The translations under genes and the position numbers were made by a program. A DNA stretch of 25,467 nt. Source: a virus. This document shows positions 1 to 25,467 of the stretch, one piece after another (the stretch's first letter is position 1; the number at the start of each line of letters is the position of its first letter). The DNA lies in the IMG/VR virus record IMGVR_UViG_3300011114_000922, positions 1-25,467 of that record. One strand, written 5' to 3'. Under the pieces are notes generated by a model. It searched no databases, was not told the DNA's origin, and worked only from the letters and a program-made list of their open reading frames with translations.

Positions 1-127
1 AAAATGGACTGCACATGCCCTAGGTGCGGGTTTGAGTTTGACAATAAAAACGCCTGATTGTGCGTGGAATCTGGCCGACCTAGCCGCGGTGCCGCAAAAC
101 GGCATCAAGGTTATGTCAACCTTTGCT
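1..127. repeat. Left copy of 127-bp terminal duplication (circular contig overlap)
   Basis: Bases 1-127 are identical to 25341-25467. An exact 127-base overlap matches the k-mer size commonly used as the largest by de Bruijn assemblers, so this is best read as an assembly signature of a circular or circularly permuted molecule and not as a biological terminal repeat. The copy contains the last 57 bases of the ParB-like gene (its stop is at 55-57) and the start of the methyltransferase gene. Confidence 0.95.
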
Positions 128-1117
128 TGTGGCGGTGGCTCCAGCATGGGTTACAAGCTCGCCGGGTGTGAAGTGATAGCGGCAAACGACATTGACCCCG
201 AGATGGCTTGGCACTACAAGCTGAACATCAAGCCCAAGCATTACTACCTGTGCCCGATTCGTGACCTGTTGACCGCCGACCTCCCGCCTGAGCTGTTCAA
301 GCTGGACATTCTGGACGGCTCGCCGCCTTGCAGCACCTTTAGCATGGCGGGCAGCCGCGAGAAGGCATGGGGTAAGGAAAAGCACTTCAGAGAAGGCCAG
401 GCTAAGCAAGTTCTTTCTGACCTGTTCTTTGACTACCTCGACCTGGTGGAGCGGTTGCGGCCTAAAGTTGCCATTGCTGAAAACGTCAAGGGCATGATTA
501 TTGGTAACGCTAAAGGCTACACGAAGCTGGTCATGGCACGCTTCAAGGAGATCGGATATCGGCCGCAGCTTTTCTTGCTGAATGGAGCCGACTGTGGAGT
601 ACCACAGCGCAGGGAGCGAGTGTTCTTCTGTGCGGTGCGGGATGACATCGAGGCACGGCCGTTGAAGCTGGTGCCAACGCACAGGTGGATTTCAGCGGGA
701 GAAGCTACGGCGGATTTGCAGGTAATAACTCAATCAGAGATACTCGACACCGTGATGACAGGAGTCGACAAGGCGTGGCAACATACAGAAAAAGGAGGTT
801 GCTATGCCGACTACTACAAGCGAGCAGAAGGAAGGAACAACGCCTTCTCACACCAAAAACTTAGCGACAAGGAACCCGCGCCGACATTAACGGCTACGAC
901 GGCTAACTTCAAACACCACTCGATCCCAAGGAAACTAACATTCCGCGAATGGAAACGCCTCGGCAGTTTCCCTGACGACTACCACGCCAAAACCGACAAG
1001 ATCGGGAAATACATGATCGGCATGAGTGTGCCACCAAAAATGACCGAAGTTGTGGCTCGTGCCGTGATTAACCAATGGCTTTTGCCGAATCGGGAATCTT
1101 TTAAAGAAACCCCTTAA
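32..1117 (+). CDS. C5-cytosine-specific DNA methyltransferase (Dcm/HhaI-type)
   Basis: Transfers a methyl group from S-adenosylmethionine to C5 of cytosine in a specific DNA site, probably marking phage DNA against host restriction. The family motifs appear in order in 361 residues: motif I FACGGGSS (31-38) for cofactor, motif IV GSPPCS with catalytic Cys100, ENV (150-152, motif VI), QRRERVFF (192-199, motif VIII), a target-recognition region about 205-298, RKLTFREWKRLGSFP (300-314, motif IX) and IGMSVPP (329-335, motif X, where the usual Asn of IGNSVP is Met). The chosen start is TTG at 32, five bases after AGGTG; the first ATG (113) would cut into the motif I beta strand. It overlaps the end of the ParB-like gene by 26 bp, so the two are probably co-translated. 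G+C is much higher than in the rest of the genome, which hints at separate acquisition. Its stop shares three bases with the convergent gene's stop. Confidence 0.93.
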   Translation: MSLTIKTPDCAWNLADLAAVPQNGIKVMSTFACGGGSSMGYKLAGCEVIAANDIDPEMAWHYKLNIKPKHYYLCPIRDLLTADLPPELFKLDILDGSPPCSTFSMAGSREKAWGKEKHFREGQAKQVLSDLFFDYLDLVERLRPKVAIAENVKGMIIGNAKGYTKLVMARFKEIGYRPQLFLLNGADCGVPQRRERVFFCAVRDDIEARPLKLVPTHRWISAGEATADLQVITQSEILDTVMTGVDKAWQHTEKGGCYADYYKRAEGRNNAFSHQKLSDKEPAPTLTATTANFKHHSIPRKLTFREWKRLGSFPDDYHAKTDKIGKYMIGMSVPPKMTEVVARAVINQWLLPNRESFKETP

Positions 1118-16706: not shown

Positions 16707-18200
16707 CTAACCTATGAAAATTTCTCTTTTACCGTCTGATTCAAGCGTATTTATAACTGCGTCCGAAATATCGTCATGTGGTGGCGCGTTTAGCGTTAAC
16801 TGTTCAATCGTTTCTAATCGCAGGGCGTCCGGTATAAGCATCGATATGAAGACCTTGTGGTTCTCAAATTTAGCTGACTGCGCCAATTTTCGAGTGATTT
16901 TATCTTTTGTTTCGTGTTTGCCTCTGATCGGTAAATCCGTAGTACGTTTGAGTTCATCAAATAAGGCTTGCCCTTTGTTTGTTTCGATCATCAACTCATT
17001 GAGTCGTAACCGTTTGCCCCAATTTTCAATAGCCAATTTGTTGGCGTTAAACGACAGTTTATCATTCGCGATATCATACACGTAGTAATTCCCTAGGCTG
17101 GTTTTAATAGTGGCGCATCTGGCCGTGAAATCGTTGATTTCCTTGGTTTTTTCGGCAGGATCAACAGCCCCACGGTTCCAGATAACGTATTCAGGCAATT
17201 CCGAAAGCGCGTCCATTTTTAATATTTTCTCTGCCTCGGTTTTGGTTGGGAACTGCCTGCCGTCATAAAATTGGATATCAGCTAATTTTATGATCGAGGT
17301 AGCATCATCTCTTACCTCGTTCTGTTTTTCGCGATTAAAAATGATACTGCCGTCATCGGCTTTATCTGCCACGAGGTCTTCGATACTTCTATGCTCAGGC
17401 CAGAGCACAAGGCCCTCGTCCCAGCTTTTGACCGCTTGGAATTTCGCGTACTTCCAGCGCTCAGATTTTTGTTTTTCGTGCAATAAATCCTCACGACTAA
17501 TAGCGGTACCCTGTAGGTGTATACAAGATGTTTTCCCAATCGCTACGCAGTAAGAAATCGAGCTTTTCCACCACCGATTAATTTTCCTGACGGCCTCTGG
17601 GTTCTCGATACAATCGTCGTCGTATAGATCGTCACCGATTAAATAATCAGGGCGTTGGCCTCTGTAGTTAATACCTCTGACGCTCTCGCCTGAACCAATA
17701 GCCGTAAAGACGACGCCATTTTTTAAAACAAATTGACGCTCCGTCCATTTTTGAGAATCCATCACGTCCCCGTAGTCGGCAAGCAGTTTTTCGTTTGCTT
17801 CAAGCTCCGTGCGGATAGCGATGTTAATCGCTTTCGCCTTTGTGCTAGTAGATTGAATATTCAGGTAGTGATTGAATTCTGATGGGCAATTTAAGGCCAA
17901 ATACAACGGGATAAGGAAACATTTTATCATGGTTTTTCCGTGCCCACGCGGTGCAAGCGTCGACGTGAACGGCTCGCGCATAATATCGACAAAATAACCG
18001 TGCAACTCATCACAATAGGGAATAGAGAATATGTGGGGGAAATAATACGCGCCCCAAGCCAAAACGTCTGCAGCCCTTGCATTAAATTCCAGTTCCTCAA
18101 CCATTTGTTCCGCGATTTCATAGCTGATAACGCCCTGGCTCAATAGATTTGCGATTTTTTTAGCCTGTTTTTTTACGTTTTGATTTTTTTGGTGTAGCAT
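16707..18200 (-). CDS. terL: Terminase large subunit
   Basis: The motor that pumps DNA into the prohead and cuts it. The 497 residues contain the N-terminal ATPase and C-terminal nuclease: Walker A-like LAPRGHGKT (82-90), a Walker B strand DYLIGDDLYDDD (185-196) with the catalytic carboxylates, and nuclease acids AVDPAEKT (Asp347) and HDDISDAV (475-482) of the RNase H-like fold. It follows the small terminase with a 41-bp overlap and is followed by the portal, the classical order. The ATG at 18200 has AGGGG three bases upstream, so it is usable though close. A later ATG (18104) would also leave all motifs. The packaging strategy (cos, pac or DTR) cannot be read safely. Confidence 0.95.
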   Translation of the reverse strand: MLHQKNQNVKKQAKKIANLLSQGVISYEIAEQMVEELEFNARAADVLAWGAYYFPHIFSIPYCDELHGYFVDIMREPFTSTLAPRGHGKTMIKCFLIPLYLALNCPSEFNHYLNIQSTSTKAKAINIAIRTELEANEKLLADYGDVMDSQKWTERQFVLKNGVVFTAIGSGESVRGINYRGQRPDYLIGDDLYDDDCIENPEAVRKINRWWKSSISYCVAIGKTSCIHLQGTAISREDLLHEKQKSERWKYAKFQAVKSWDEGLVLWPEHRSIEDLVADKADDGSIIFNREKQNEVRDDATSIIKLADIQFYDGRQFPTKTEAEKILKMDALSELPEYVIWNRGAVDPAEKTKEINDFTARCATIKTSLGNYYVYDIANDKLSFNANKLAIENWGKRLRLNELMIETNKGQALFDELKRTTDLPIRGKHETKDKITRKLAQSAKFENHKVFISMLIPDALRLETIEQLTLNAPPHDDISDAVINTLESDGKREIFIG

Positions 18201-23688: not shown

Positions 23689-23696
23689 AATAATCT

Positions 23697-23751
23697 CCTT
23701 TGTGATTTGATAATTCAATTGTACTATACTTGATTAACTTTGTCAACTATT
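23697..23751. repeat. 55-bp direct repeat, copy 2 (promoter block)
   Basis: 55 bases identical to 24681-24735, covering the whole promoter and the front of the leader. The exact identity over a noncoding stretch suggests recent duplication or gene conversion between cassettes. Confidence 0.9.
23718..23746 (-). promoter_or_regulatory. Promoter P3 (sigma70 consensus) for the regulator and the long downstream gene run
   Basis: TTGACA (23746-23741), a 17-base spacer and TACAAT (23723-23718). It is within the 55-bp block shared with P1 and precedes the ribbon-helix-helix gene with a leader of about 24 bases. Immediately after the -10 is a 17-base block (23704-23720), also found at the other two promoters. 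This is the likely start of transcription for recombination genes and perhaps further. Confidence 0.8.
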
Positions 23752-23763
23752 AATTTACTTAAT

Positions 23764-24080: not shown

Positions 24081-24239
24081 TTATTTAACAATTATACTAT
24101 CAAAAGGTGGAACTTTTTTGCCGTCTATAAACCACGCTTTCGTTCCGTTCGCAAATTCAATAGCGGGACCGTCTAGGCGGTGCAGTTCGTCGTCTTTGTA
24201 CCAATATTTTCCGTCAAGCCGTTCAATTGGATTCGTCAC
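24081..24239 (-). CDS. 52-residue MORN-like repeat protein (short paralogue)
   Basis: GTG 24239 with AGGA eight bases upstream opens 52 codons, ending at TAA 24081. The product starts VTNPIERLDGKYWYKDDELH and contains RLDGPAIEFANGTKAWFIDG, i.e. about one and a half copies of the 23-residue repeat seen in the gene at 24312-24671. It has its own promoter (P2). It is a shorter paralogue, arisen by duplication with loss of repeats or as the ancestral unit. Function unknown. Confidence 0.8.
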   Translation of the reverse strand: MTNPIERLDGKYWYKDDELHRLDGPAIEFANGTKAWFIDGKKVPPFDSIIVK

Positions 24240-24270
24240 TTTGTTTTTCCTTTGCTGATTTGATAATTCA

Positions 24271-24299
24271 ATTATATCACTAATGATACAATTTGTAAA
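24271..24299 (-). promoter_or_regulatory. Promoter P2 (sigma70 type) for the 52-residue repeat protein
   Basis: TTTACA (24299-24294), 17-base spacer, and a perfect TATAAT (24276-24271), followed by the same 17-base block (24257-24273) present at P1 and P3. The spacer differs from P1/P3, so this copy is older or under other constraints. Confidence 0.75.
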
Positions 24300-24311
24300 C
24301 TATTGTTTTAC

Positions 24312-24671
24312 TTATTCAGCATTAATAGGTAGTATTTTTTCGCCGTTTAAATACCATTCTTTCGATCCATCCGCCCATTCAATTGCTGGCCCGTCTAGTC
24401 GGTGCCGTTCGCCGTTTATAAACCAATGTTTTGAACCTCCCGTGCCTTTAATTGCTGGCCCGTCTAGTCGGTGTAATTCGCCGTTTTTGTACCACTCTGT
24501 AGATCCGTCCGGGAATTCAACGGCGGCGCCGTCTAGTCGGTGACGTTTCCCGCCTTTGCACCAAACTTTCAATCCGTCCGCACGTTCAACCGCTGGCCCG
24601 TCTTCGCGGTGCAACATGTTATTTTTATACCATTCTAAAGACCCGTCATTGTATTTAATTGGATTAGTCAT
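24312..24671 (-). CDS. MORN-like repeat protein, 119 residues
   Basis: The protein consists almost wholly of about four and a half copies of a 23-residue unit of the form W-Y-x-N-G-x-x-H-R-x-D-G-P-A-x-E-x-x-D-G-S. Examples are EWYKNGELHRLDGPAIKG and HWFINGERHRLDGPAIEW. Such units occur widely in phage and giant-virus proteins and resemble MORN/YwqK repeats: short beta hairpins stacked into a ribbon, often with binding functions. It is the first gene after the divergent intergenic region, with promoter P1 and AAGGGG before ATG 24671, so it is probably expressed early. The role is unknown; target binding, for example to a host factor, is a guess. Confidence 0.85.
   Translation of the reverse strand: MTNPIKYNDGSLEWYKNNMLHREDGPAVERADGLKVWCKGGKRHRLDGAAVEFPDGSTEWYKNGELHRLDGPAIKGTGGSKHWFINGERHRLDGPAIEWADGSKEWYLNGEKILPINAE
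24342..24617 (-). repeat. Four tandem 69-bp units encoding the MORN-like repeats
   Basis: Units start at 24342, 24411, 24480 and 24549 on the plus strand, each near GCCGTTT/CCGCCTTT and ending GTCTAGTCGGTG or a variant. The 69-bp period equals 23 codons. The third and fourth units are more diverged. The 52-residue gene (24081-24239) carries further matching sequence. Confidence 0.85.
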
Positions 24672-24680
24672 TTTGTTTCC

Positions 24681-24735
24681 CCTTTGTGATTTGATAATTC
24701 AATTGTACTATACTTGATTAACTTTGTCAACTATT
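24681..24735. repeat. 55-bp direct repeat, copy 1 (promoter block)
   Basis: Identical to 23697-23751. It contains the complete promoter P1, the 17-base post-promoter block (24688-24704) and the front of the leader. Confidence 0.9.
24702..24730 (-). promoter_or_regulatory. Promoter P1 (sigma70 consensus) for the MORN-like gene
   Basis: TTGACA (24730-24725), 17-base spacer and TACAAT (24707-24702) on the minus strand; the start point near 24695 leaves a leader of about 24 bases before ATG 24671. The sequence is identical to P3. Confidence 0.85.
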
Positions 24736-24890
24736 GTTTTACCTCCATATATATACAATACCCTAATTTTCAAAACTCTAAACATATAAAACGCATACAA
24801 TGCAACTATTGTTTGTGTTCTATATAGGTATTTAATAGCGGAGATAAATTGCGGTGCTATAATAAAATATAAACTTTTAAAGGGGTTCTA
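24736..24890. other. Divergent intergenic region
   Basis: About 155 AT-rich bases separate the leftward early genes from the rightward ParB/methyltransferase operon. The motif AACTATTGTTT occurs in the promoter P1 flank (24730-24740), again at about 24802-24812, and near P2, which may be a regulator site. No gene is seen. Confidence 0.5.
24855..24863 (+). promoter_or_regulatory. Extended -10 promoter for the ParB/methyltransferase operon
   Basis: TGCTATAAT (24855-24863) is an exact extended -10 (TGn plus TATAAT). No good -35 is visible 17 bases upstream (ATAGCG), as is usual for extended -10 promoters. AAGGGG at about 24880-24885 is the ribosome binding site for GTG 24891. Confidence 0.65.
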
Positions 24891-25397
24891 GTGGAAATTA
24901 AACAAATTCCGGTTTCAGATTTGATCCCGTACCAAAAAAATGCCCGAACACATAGCGAAGCACAAATTGAGCAGATTGCCGCCAGTATTAAAGAATTTGG
25001 CTTTACTAACCCCGTTTTGTTAGACGGAAACAACGGAATTATTGCCGGCCACGGACGCGTTCTCGCCGCTCAAAAACTCGGAATATTAACCGTGCCTTGT
25101 ATCGAACTGGCACACCTAACGCCAACCCAAAAAAAAGCCTATATTTTAGCTGATAACAAAATCGCTCTTAATGCCGGCTGGGATGATGAACTATTGGCTC
25201 TTGAGCTAGGCGAACTAGATAAAATGGGTTTTAATCTTGAGTTGACGGGATTCAATCTATTAGAAATGGCCAATATTTTTGATAACCGTGTTATAAGCGA
25301 GCCTGAATCTAGCGCAAAAGAGATAAATACAGACGACTACAAAATGGACTGCACATGCCCTAGGTGCGGGTTTGAGTTTGACAATAAAAACGCCTGA
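24891..25397 (+). CDS. ParB/sulfiredoxin-fold protein with C-terminal zinc knuckle
   Basis: A 168-residue protein. Residues 1 to about 95 form a ParB N-terminal domain: IKQIPVSDLIPYQKNARTHS, then LLDGNNGIIAGHGRVLAAQK with the GHGR box (53-56), and TQKKAYILADNKIALNAGW. This is the form of ParB domain that phages and mobile elements often fuse to a DNA methylase; here it stands alone, and the methylase is the next, overlapping gene. The C-terminus carries CTCPRCGFEF (Cys154, 156, 159), an incomplete zinc-ribbon that may need a further ligand. GTG 24891 has AGGGG five bases upstream. The gene crosses the contig junction (stop at 25395-25397, equal to 55-57). A role in guiding or regulating the methyltransferase is inferred. 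Confidence 0.88.
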   Translation: MEIKQIPVSDLIPYQKNARTHSEAQIEQIAASIKEFGFTNPVLLDGNNGIIAGHGRVLAAQKLGILTVPCIELAHLTPTQKKAYILADNKIALNAGWDDELLALELGELDKMGFNLELTGFNLLEMANIFDNRVISEPESSAKEINTDDYKMDCTCPRCGFEFDNKNA

Positions 25398-25467
25398 TTG
25401 TGCGTGGAATCTGGCCGACCTAGCCGCGGTGCCGCAAAACGGCATCAAGGTTATGTCAACCTTTGCT
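25341..25467. repeat. Right copy of 127-bp terminal duplication
   Basis: Identical to bases 1-127; it includes the ParB-like stop and the first 96 bases of the methyltransferase gene (TTG at 25372). After removal of one copy the circle is 25,340 bp. Confidence 0.95.

Follow-up and report, generated by a model that had tools for sequence, protein, structure and literature searches.

A split pair of ParB-like and C5-methyltransferase genes in a viral genome, a probable variant of known ParB-modification loci

Two overlapping genes on the plus strand

The window, i.e., the whole stretch of 25,467 nucleotides analysed here (IMG/VR record IMGVR_UViG_3300011114_000922), has identical ends of 127 bp; its unit is 25,340 bp, and the contig is either circular or terminally redundant. 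Because the ends are identical, the C5 methyltransferase (MTase) gene begun at 25372 runs on into positions 1-1117. It follows a gene for a ParB-like protein, and the two ORFs, which lie in different frames, share 26 bp (Table 1); a second TTG, at 25378, is also possible as the MTase start. Every other ORF of the plus strand is either short or lies antisense to a longer one on the minus strand. This overlap, with TTG 25372 equal to position 32, had been described in an earlier note on this DNA, and both the ORFs and the identical ends bear it out; its claim that these are the sole plus-strand genes fits the layout as well, as judged from the ORFs rather than from a systematic annotation.

Table 1. 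Features of the gene pair and the terminase gene (window coordinates)
Feature	Position	Strand	Remarks
Terminase large subunit (TerL)	16707-18200	-	directly behind the pair and codirectional in most relatives; distant and opposite here
Extended -10-like element TGCTATAAT	24855-24863	+	upstream of the ParB-like gene; consensus match only
Shine-Dalgarno-like AAGGGG	24880-24885	+	5 nt ahead of the ParB-like GTG start
ParB-like gene	24891-25397	+	168 aa, GTG start; ParB_N / phrog_620
Exchangeable ParB core, residues 1-123	24891-25259	+	R19, GHGR 53-56, N89 motifs
C-terminal tail, residues 136-165	25296-25385	+	C156-P-R-C159-G-F-E-F; type fits the downstream enzyme
Possible MTase Shine-Dalgarno AGGTG	25362-25366	+	within the CPRC codons, 5 nt from TTG 25372
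C5 MTase gene	25372 (=32) to 1117	+	361 aa, TTG start; PF00145
C5 MTase 5' part	25372-25467	+	same letters as window 32-127
MTase motif IV PPC	323-331	+	within the C5 MTase gene
Variable target-recognition region (TRD), residues ~215-298	674-925	+	swapped independently of the ParB core

The same note had placed an extended -10 promoter ahead of the pair. The element itself is present; the word TGNTATAAT occurs twice in the genome for about 1.5 occurrences expected by chance, no -35 is recognisable for the TGCTATAAT element, and a consensus promoter scan gave no entry at 24855-24863. We consequently describe it as promoter-like only. Other signals lie nearby. A 65-bp element is found in three copies, 72-95% identical (23694-23758, 24247-24311, and 24678-24742), each ahead of a small minus-strand early gene, and its best copy carries TTGACA-17-TACAAT on the minus strand; the three probably serve as a common early promoter/operator, and one copy is divergent relative to the ParB-like gene. 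Two related small proteins with a weak DUF6745 match, encoded on the minus strand at 24081-24239 and 24312-24671, contain tandem 23-aa (69-nt) MORN-like repeats (WYKNGELHRLDGPA) and have been duplicated along with their promoters. Finally, the GC content of the 5' half of the MTase gene (window 1-800) is 0.53-0.56, versus 0.40-0.49 in the stretch that follows and 0.44 in the genome, which may reflect a recent acquisition.

A cytosine methyltransferase and a ParB/Noc-like protein

The downstream protein matches PF00145 (E=6.5e-47) and its catalytic motifs are intact, i.e., the invariant PPC (98-100), ENV (150-152), and R194 and R196 (QRR). By domain and motifs, it is a predicted C5-cytosine DNA methyltransferase. 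As a side observation, CGCG, GGCC, and GATC are under-represented relative to a Markov expectation over positions 1-25340, where the CpG observed/expected ratio is 1.26; the low counts perhaps reflect restriction avoidance, and as a pointer to the methylated site they gave no interpretable signal. Relaxed specificity is on record for proteins homologous to the m5C MTase of one Paracoccus phage, perhaps of another subfamily than the window MTase.

The upstream protein matches the phrog_620 "ParB-like partition protein" family strongly (E=1.4e-61) and the Pfam ParB_N domain (PF02195) with an E value of 5.6e-6, which falls just above the cut-off. The earlier note had proposed structure prediction as a check of the ParB fold, and the fold came through it: the AlphaFold2 model (pLDDT 90.7, pTM 0.70) has as its best solved matches Noc (7ng0) and CTP/CDP-bound ParB, with TM around 0.6. 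In this 168-aa model, both the helix-turn-helix (HTH) domain, which binds parS, and the C-terminal dimerisation domain are absent; past the core come short helices and a CPxC tail, modelled as a small hairpin (pLDDT ~83-90) after a less confident linker. We are confident, from this model, in assigning the protein a ParB/Noc-like fold minus the HTH.

Among the ParB-like proteins, the Box II arginine motif G53-H54-x-R56 is nearly invariant, and this arginine matters for nucleotide binding in the ParB fold (PMC12704722). A CTP-type switch is thus possible, on the grounds of the fold and of the conserved GHGR motif, the nucleotide itself not being readable from sequence or model; it is reported to be predictable neither from sequence nor with AlphaFold3 (PMC12704722). 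In a set of 77 diverse ParB-like proteins, the sole invariant residues are G53, C156, P157, and C159, and therefore the CPxC of the tail is conserved at least as strongly as the ParB signature. The tail had been called a zinc knuckle. In the window it reads CxCPxC, the invariant part being just the two cysteines of CPxC, and a third C/H stands two residues ahead of CPxC in 86 of 102 C5-type tails. There are therefore three possible ligands and no complete four-ligand site, so that the knuckle is retained in part only.

Recurrence of the split pair

A scan of viral contigs with the ParB-like protein gave 80 loci, in which the gene stands ahead of C5 MTases, ahead of Mom-family proteins, or fused to N6/N4 MTases. 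An independent viral scan, seeded by the MTase and hence free of ParB-seeding bias, gave 79 loci carrying the MTase. A ParB-like gene lies immediately upstream in 77 of them and the other two end at a contig edge, i.e., the pairing holds for 77/77 of the nearest viral MTases with room upstream. Over all scans (the viral scans, a genome scan, and two more, ParB-seeded scans included), 132/132 testable close MTases and 74/99 distant ones are paired. The paired genomes include Betaproteobacteria, Bacillus (for example Bacillus spizizenii TU-B-10, L179/L180), Paenibacillus, and Clostridia/Lachnospiraceae, while the distant MTases with no linked ParB, about a quarter, belong mostly to Bacteroidota. 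The search for other genomes with a ParB-only gene beside a C5-methylase, suggested in the earlier note, was thus amply answered. The outcome that it had feared, a widespread pair of unrelated neighbours, did not materialise: the same gene stands directly upstream of every testable close MTase. This rules out chance neighbours, an explanation to which we give practically no weight.

The split state, which the earlier note had described for the window, recurs too. None of the loci fetched contains a ParB-C5 fusion, and fusions of ParB to adenine MTases are common among them. No gene consisting of the tail alone, in the manner of Com, was found ahead of the unpaired MTases. Some loci have a more elaborate layout. 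In seven (L178, L193, L211, L221, L227, L232, and L233), the split pair is directly followed by a long ParB-like ORF, possibly a ParB-N6 MTase fusion; in three loci of Clostridia/Bacteroidales MAGs, two or three tandem ParB-like ORFs precede one C5 MTase (L194:3816-4966, L224:2963-4993, L228:4056-4987).

The position of the window pair is unusual. It lies ~6.7 kb from TerL and on the opposite strand, whereas in the relatives with a terminase match, TerL mostly begins 22-1106 bp past the MTase on the same strand. The exceptions are L355, whose TerL lies at a distance of 5.6 kb, L353, where it is on the opposite strand, and L158, where MTase and TerL occupy the two ends of the contig.

Exchange of core, tail, and target-recognition region

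In 84 C5 pairs, the mean identity is 72% for the MTases and 49% for the ParB cores, and cores as low as 21% identical are found beside MTases 80-90% identical; within the pair, the core varies most. Individual comparisons show how the parts are exchanged. L122 and L165 have MTases 95% identical and nearly the same tail, with cores of ~34% identity. Conversely, L006 (C5) and L015 (Mom) share cores 89% identical while tail and partner enzyme differ, and the cores of L102 (C5) and L069 (fused N6) are 93% identical. On the core tree, which is short (123 columns) and leaves many forks unresolved, partner labels change 25 times, at least three changes per group being forced by well-supported branches.

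This mobility raises the question of where sequence specificity resides. One reading makes the ParB-like protein the sequence-targeting subunit of the MTase, as the earlier note had suggested; the variability of the core would suit it, as would a weak partial correlation between core and TRD distances (r 0.17, permutation p 0.002). However, the MTase has a full TRD of its own, the ParB model has no HTH, and the TRD is exchanged under the same core in 28 of the 49 pairs with a core distance below 0.15. Since the TRD is swapped while the core stays constant, specificity most likely resides in the MTase and not in ParB, and we judge a targeting role of the ParB-like protein to be very unlikely.

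The tail behaves differently from the core. Its similarity is 0.115 between C5 and Mom loci versus 0.46 within C5, so that the two classes separate; for the core, the values are 0.466 and 0.365 and the classes do not separate. Indeed, the nearest neighbour predicts the partner rightly in 117/118 cases by the tail and in 101/118 by the core. The tail is constrained at the protein level, because its codons vary synonymously (the four codons for Pro, the four for Gly, and the two for Cys all occur) and because it persists in the Bacillus pairs, where the genes do not overlap (gap of +9 to +11). These same observations rule out that it is conserved merely through the overlapping frame. They also bear on a translational control of the Com type. 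In phage Mu, Com switches mom translation, and here a zinc-knuckle tail whose coding sequence covers the start of the downstream gene would bind the mRNA and switch translation of the modification enzyme. A small Cys motif in a gene that overlaps a modification gene, Mom genes included, is what such a control would look like, but the synonymous variation and the tails without overlap argue against it, as does the junction, where no structured RNA was detected in 45 loci (mean folding z between about +0.1 and +0.2). We accord this control very little credence.

A tail whose type tracks the enzyme suggests docking, with some reservations. Since the tail adjoins the partner gene, linkage alone could carry it along, and it is here that the docking argument is weakest. 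In the sequence comparison, no MTase residue change convincingly marked a docking site or a partner. Moreover, a CPxC tail is present in a ParB-like protein followed directly by a terminase, with no modification enzyme (L089), which calls for caution over a simple docking reading. This locus fits a cassette whose members never touch, held together by translational coupling and co-inheritance: ParB would act alone, an NTP-regulated nicking nuclease and a packaging factor being two possible roles, and protection of the phage DNA would fall to the MTase. The gene overlap agrees with translational coupling, and nuclease and nicking activities have been reported for the ParB-methylase Bce_0392 and others (PMC5512222). 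Against this stand the correspondence between tail type and enzyme, and the joint action implied by adenine MTases fused to this core together with the near-total pairing with C5 MTases. We regard a cassette without contact as unlikely, though as the most serious of the alternatives.

Related ParB-modification cassettes

A CPxC-tailed ParB-like gene, mostly overlapping a Mom-family gene, was observed in L010-L013, L015, L017-L019, L022, L030-L031, L033-L034, L036, L039, L043, L046-L047, and L056. PF25680 is found in the members scanned, and terminase-like genes usually come next; by its gene content, this is a second split ParB-modification cassette. In L060:5557-6681 and L088:3504-4574, the ParB-like gene is followed by an ABC-ATPase + GNAT acetyltransferase protein (phrog_11143), possibly another DNA-modification enzyme. 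In L061:5734-7579 and L038:814-2638, the genes behind it code for a protein with histidine phosphatase and cytidylyltransferase parts and for a TET-associated glycosyltransferase (PF20691). The domains were scanned in L061, and these loci would be candidate cassettes for base glycosylation. Finally, in L067:3831-4916 the ParB-like gene is followed by a protein of the PAPS-reductase family (phrog_2302) and by a further ParB/Srx-like ORF.

A model for the cassette

We propose that a ParB-type NTP-binding clamp or adaptor delivers to phage DNA a modification enzyme that can be exchanged, a model in which contact, nucleotide use, and methylation are all inferred and to which we give about an even chance. 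The ParB/Noc-type domain, devoid of an HTH, would probably be associated with phage DNA, acting as a clamp or adaptor under nucleotide control; the CPxCGF tail at its C terminus would probably dock the C5 MTase, whose own TRD would choose the target sequence. By this way, ParB would raise or time the contact of the MTase with phage DNA, typically around packaging, and the phage genome would become cytosine-methylated and could escape host restriction. Against this model weigh the distance of the window pair from the terminase and the roughly one quarter of distant MTases that do without a linked ParB. An anti-restriction role, marking the virus's own DNA, is plausible. The occurrence of the same core beside another modification enzyme, Mom (PF25680), leads to a wider and more tentative idea, which we consider possible but rather doubtful: a plug-in system, in which a freely swapped NTP-driven clamp core carries a CPxC tail specific to each enzyme class (C5 MTase, Mom, and others).

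Phage DNA-modification enzymes are frequently partnered by ParB-like proteins. The exchanges of core, tail, and TRD amount to natural swap experiments, with differing cores on the same enzyme and differing enzymes on one core. Should the tail be a docking code, this would account for the use of a single NTP-binding loader with many base modifications; if the plug-in reading is true, the same loader would bring different base chemistries to viral DNA. With two short genes, the published idea of a modification directed by ParB at packaging becomes directly testable.

Comparison with known systems

The earlier note had considered the pair a candidate for a little-described system. This does not hold, since ParB-Tls loci, composed of a ParB-like gene, DNA-modifying genes, and a terminase, are already published, m5C MTases included (Iyer et al. 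2013, as recounted in PMC6536676). Within these loci, 21 m5C MTases without a ParB domain are counted (PMC6536676), and the same article repeats an earlier proposal that ParB directs modification during packaging. Like them, the window has a DNA-modifying gene, here for a C5 MTase, directly downstream of its ParB-like gene, and most relatives of the pair directly precede TerL; unlike them, its own TerL is ~6.7 kb off on the minus strand instead of following on the same strand. The account of Iyer et al. 2013 given in PMC6536676 makes no mention of tail/core modularity.

A close likeness is found in Moraxella phage Mcat8 (AKI27363-AKI27362, KR093632), which has the same gene order, an 8-bp overlap, and a CPKCGYEF tail, with 51% (ParB) and 33% (MTase) identity to the window proteins; its pair, unlike that of the window, sits just ahead of the terminase genes, and is annotated only as hypothetical proteins. 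The ParB-N6/N4 MTase fusions (phrog_498), reported in a survey of the ParB fold (PMC12704722), have a homologous core, whose identity to the cores paired with C5 enzymes reaches 93%. However, they are one polypeptide with an adenine/N4-type MTase and no CPxCGF tail noted, whereas the window has two ORFs in different frames and a C5 domain only. The text of that survey contains no Mom and nothing on the C5 pair. ParB-Mom pairs (PF25680 / phrog_1384) share the ParB core, a CPxC tail, and an overlapping downstream modification gene, and differ in tail type (TEDDQGKLDELxPKxIxCPxCGxEFDAR) and chemistry. As for the chromosomal ParB/Noc CTPases, the window protein has their N-terminal NTP-binding fold (7ng0, 7bnk), but neither their HTH nor their C-terminal dimerisation domain, and no parS or ParA context was seen.

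In the literature searched, most subscription papers lying outside the search, we found neither the correspondence between tail and partner nor the exchange of core, tail, and TRD; this modularity, with the tail type tracking the enzyme, appears new. From the earlier reading, we keep a real and recurrent split pair, probably part of a functional cassette, and give up both its little-described status and the sequence-targeting subunit. Judged from sequence, the window pair would be a displaced C5-type form of the known ParB-modification loci, to which it adds a new structural regularity.
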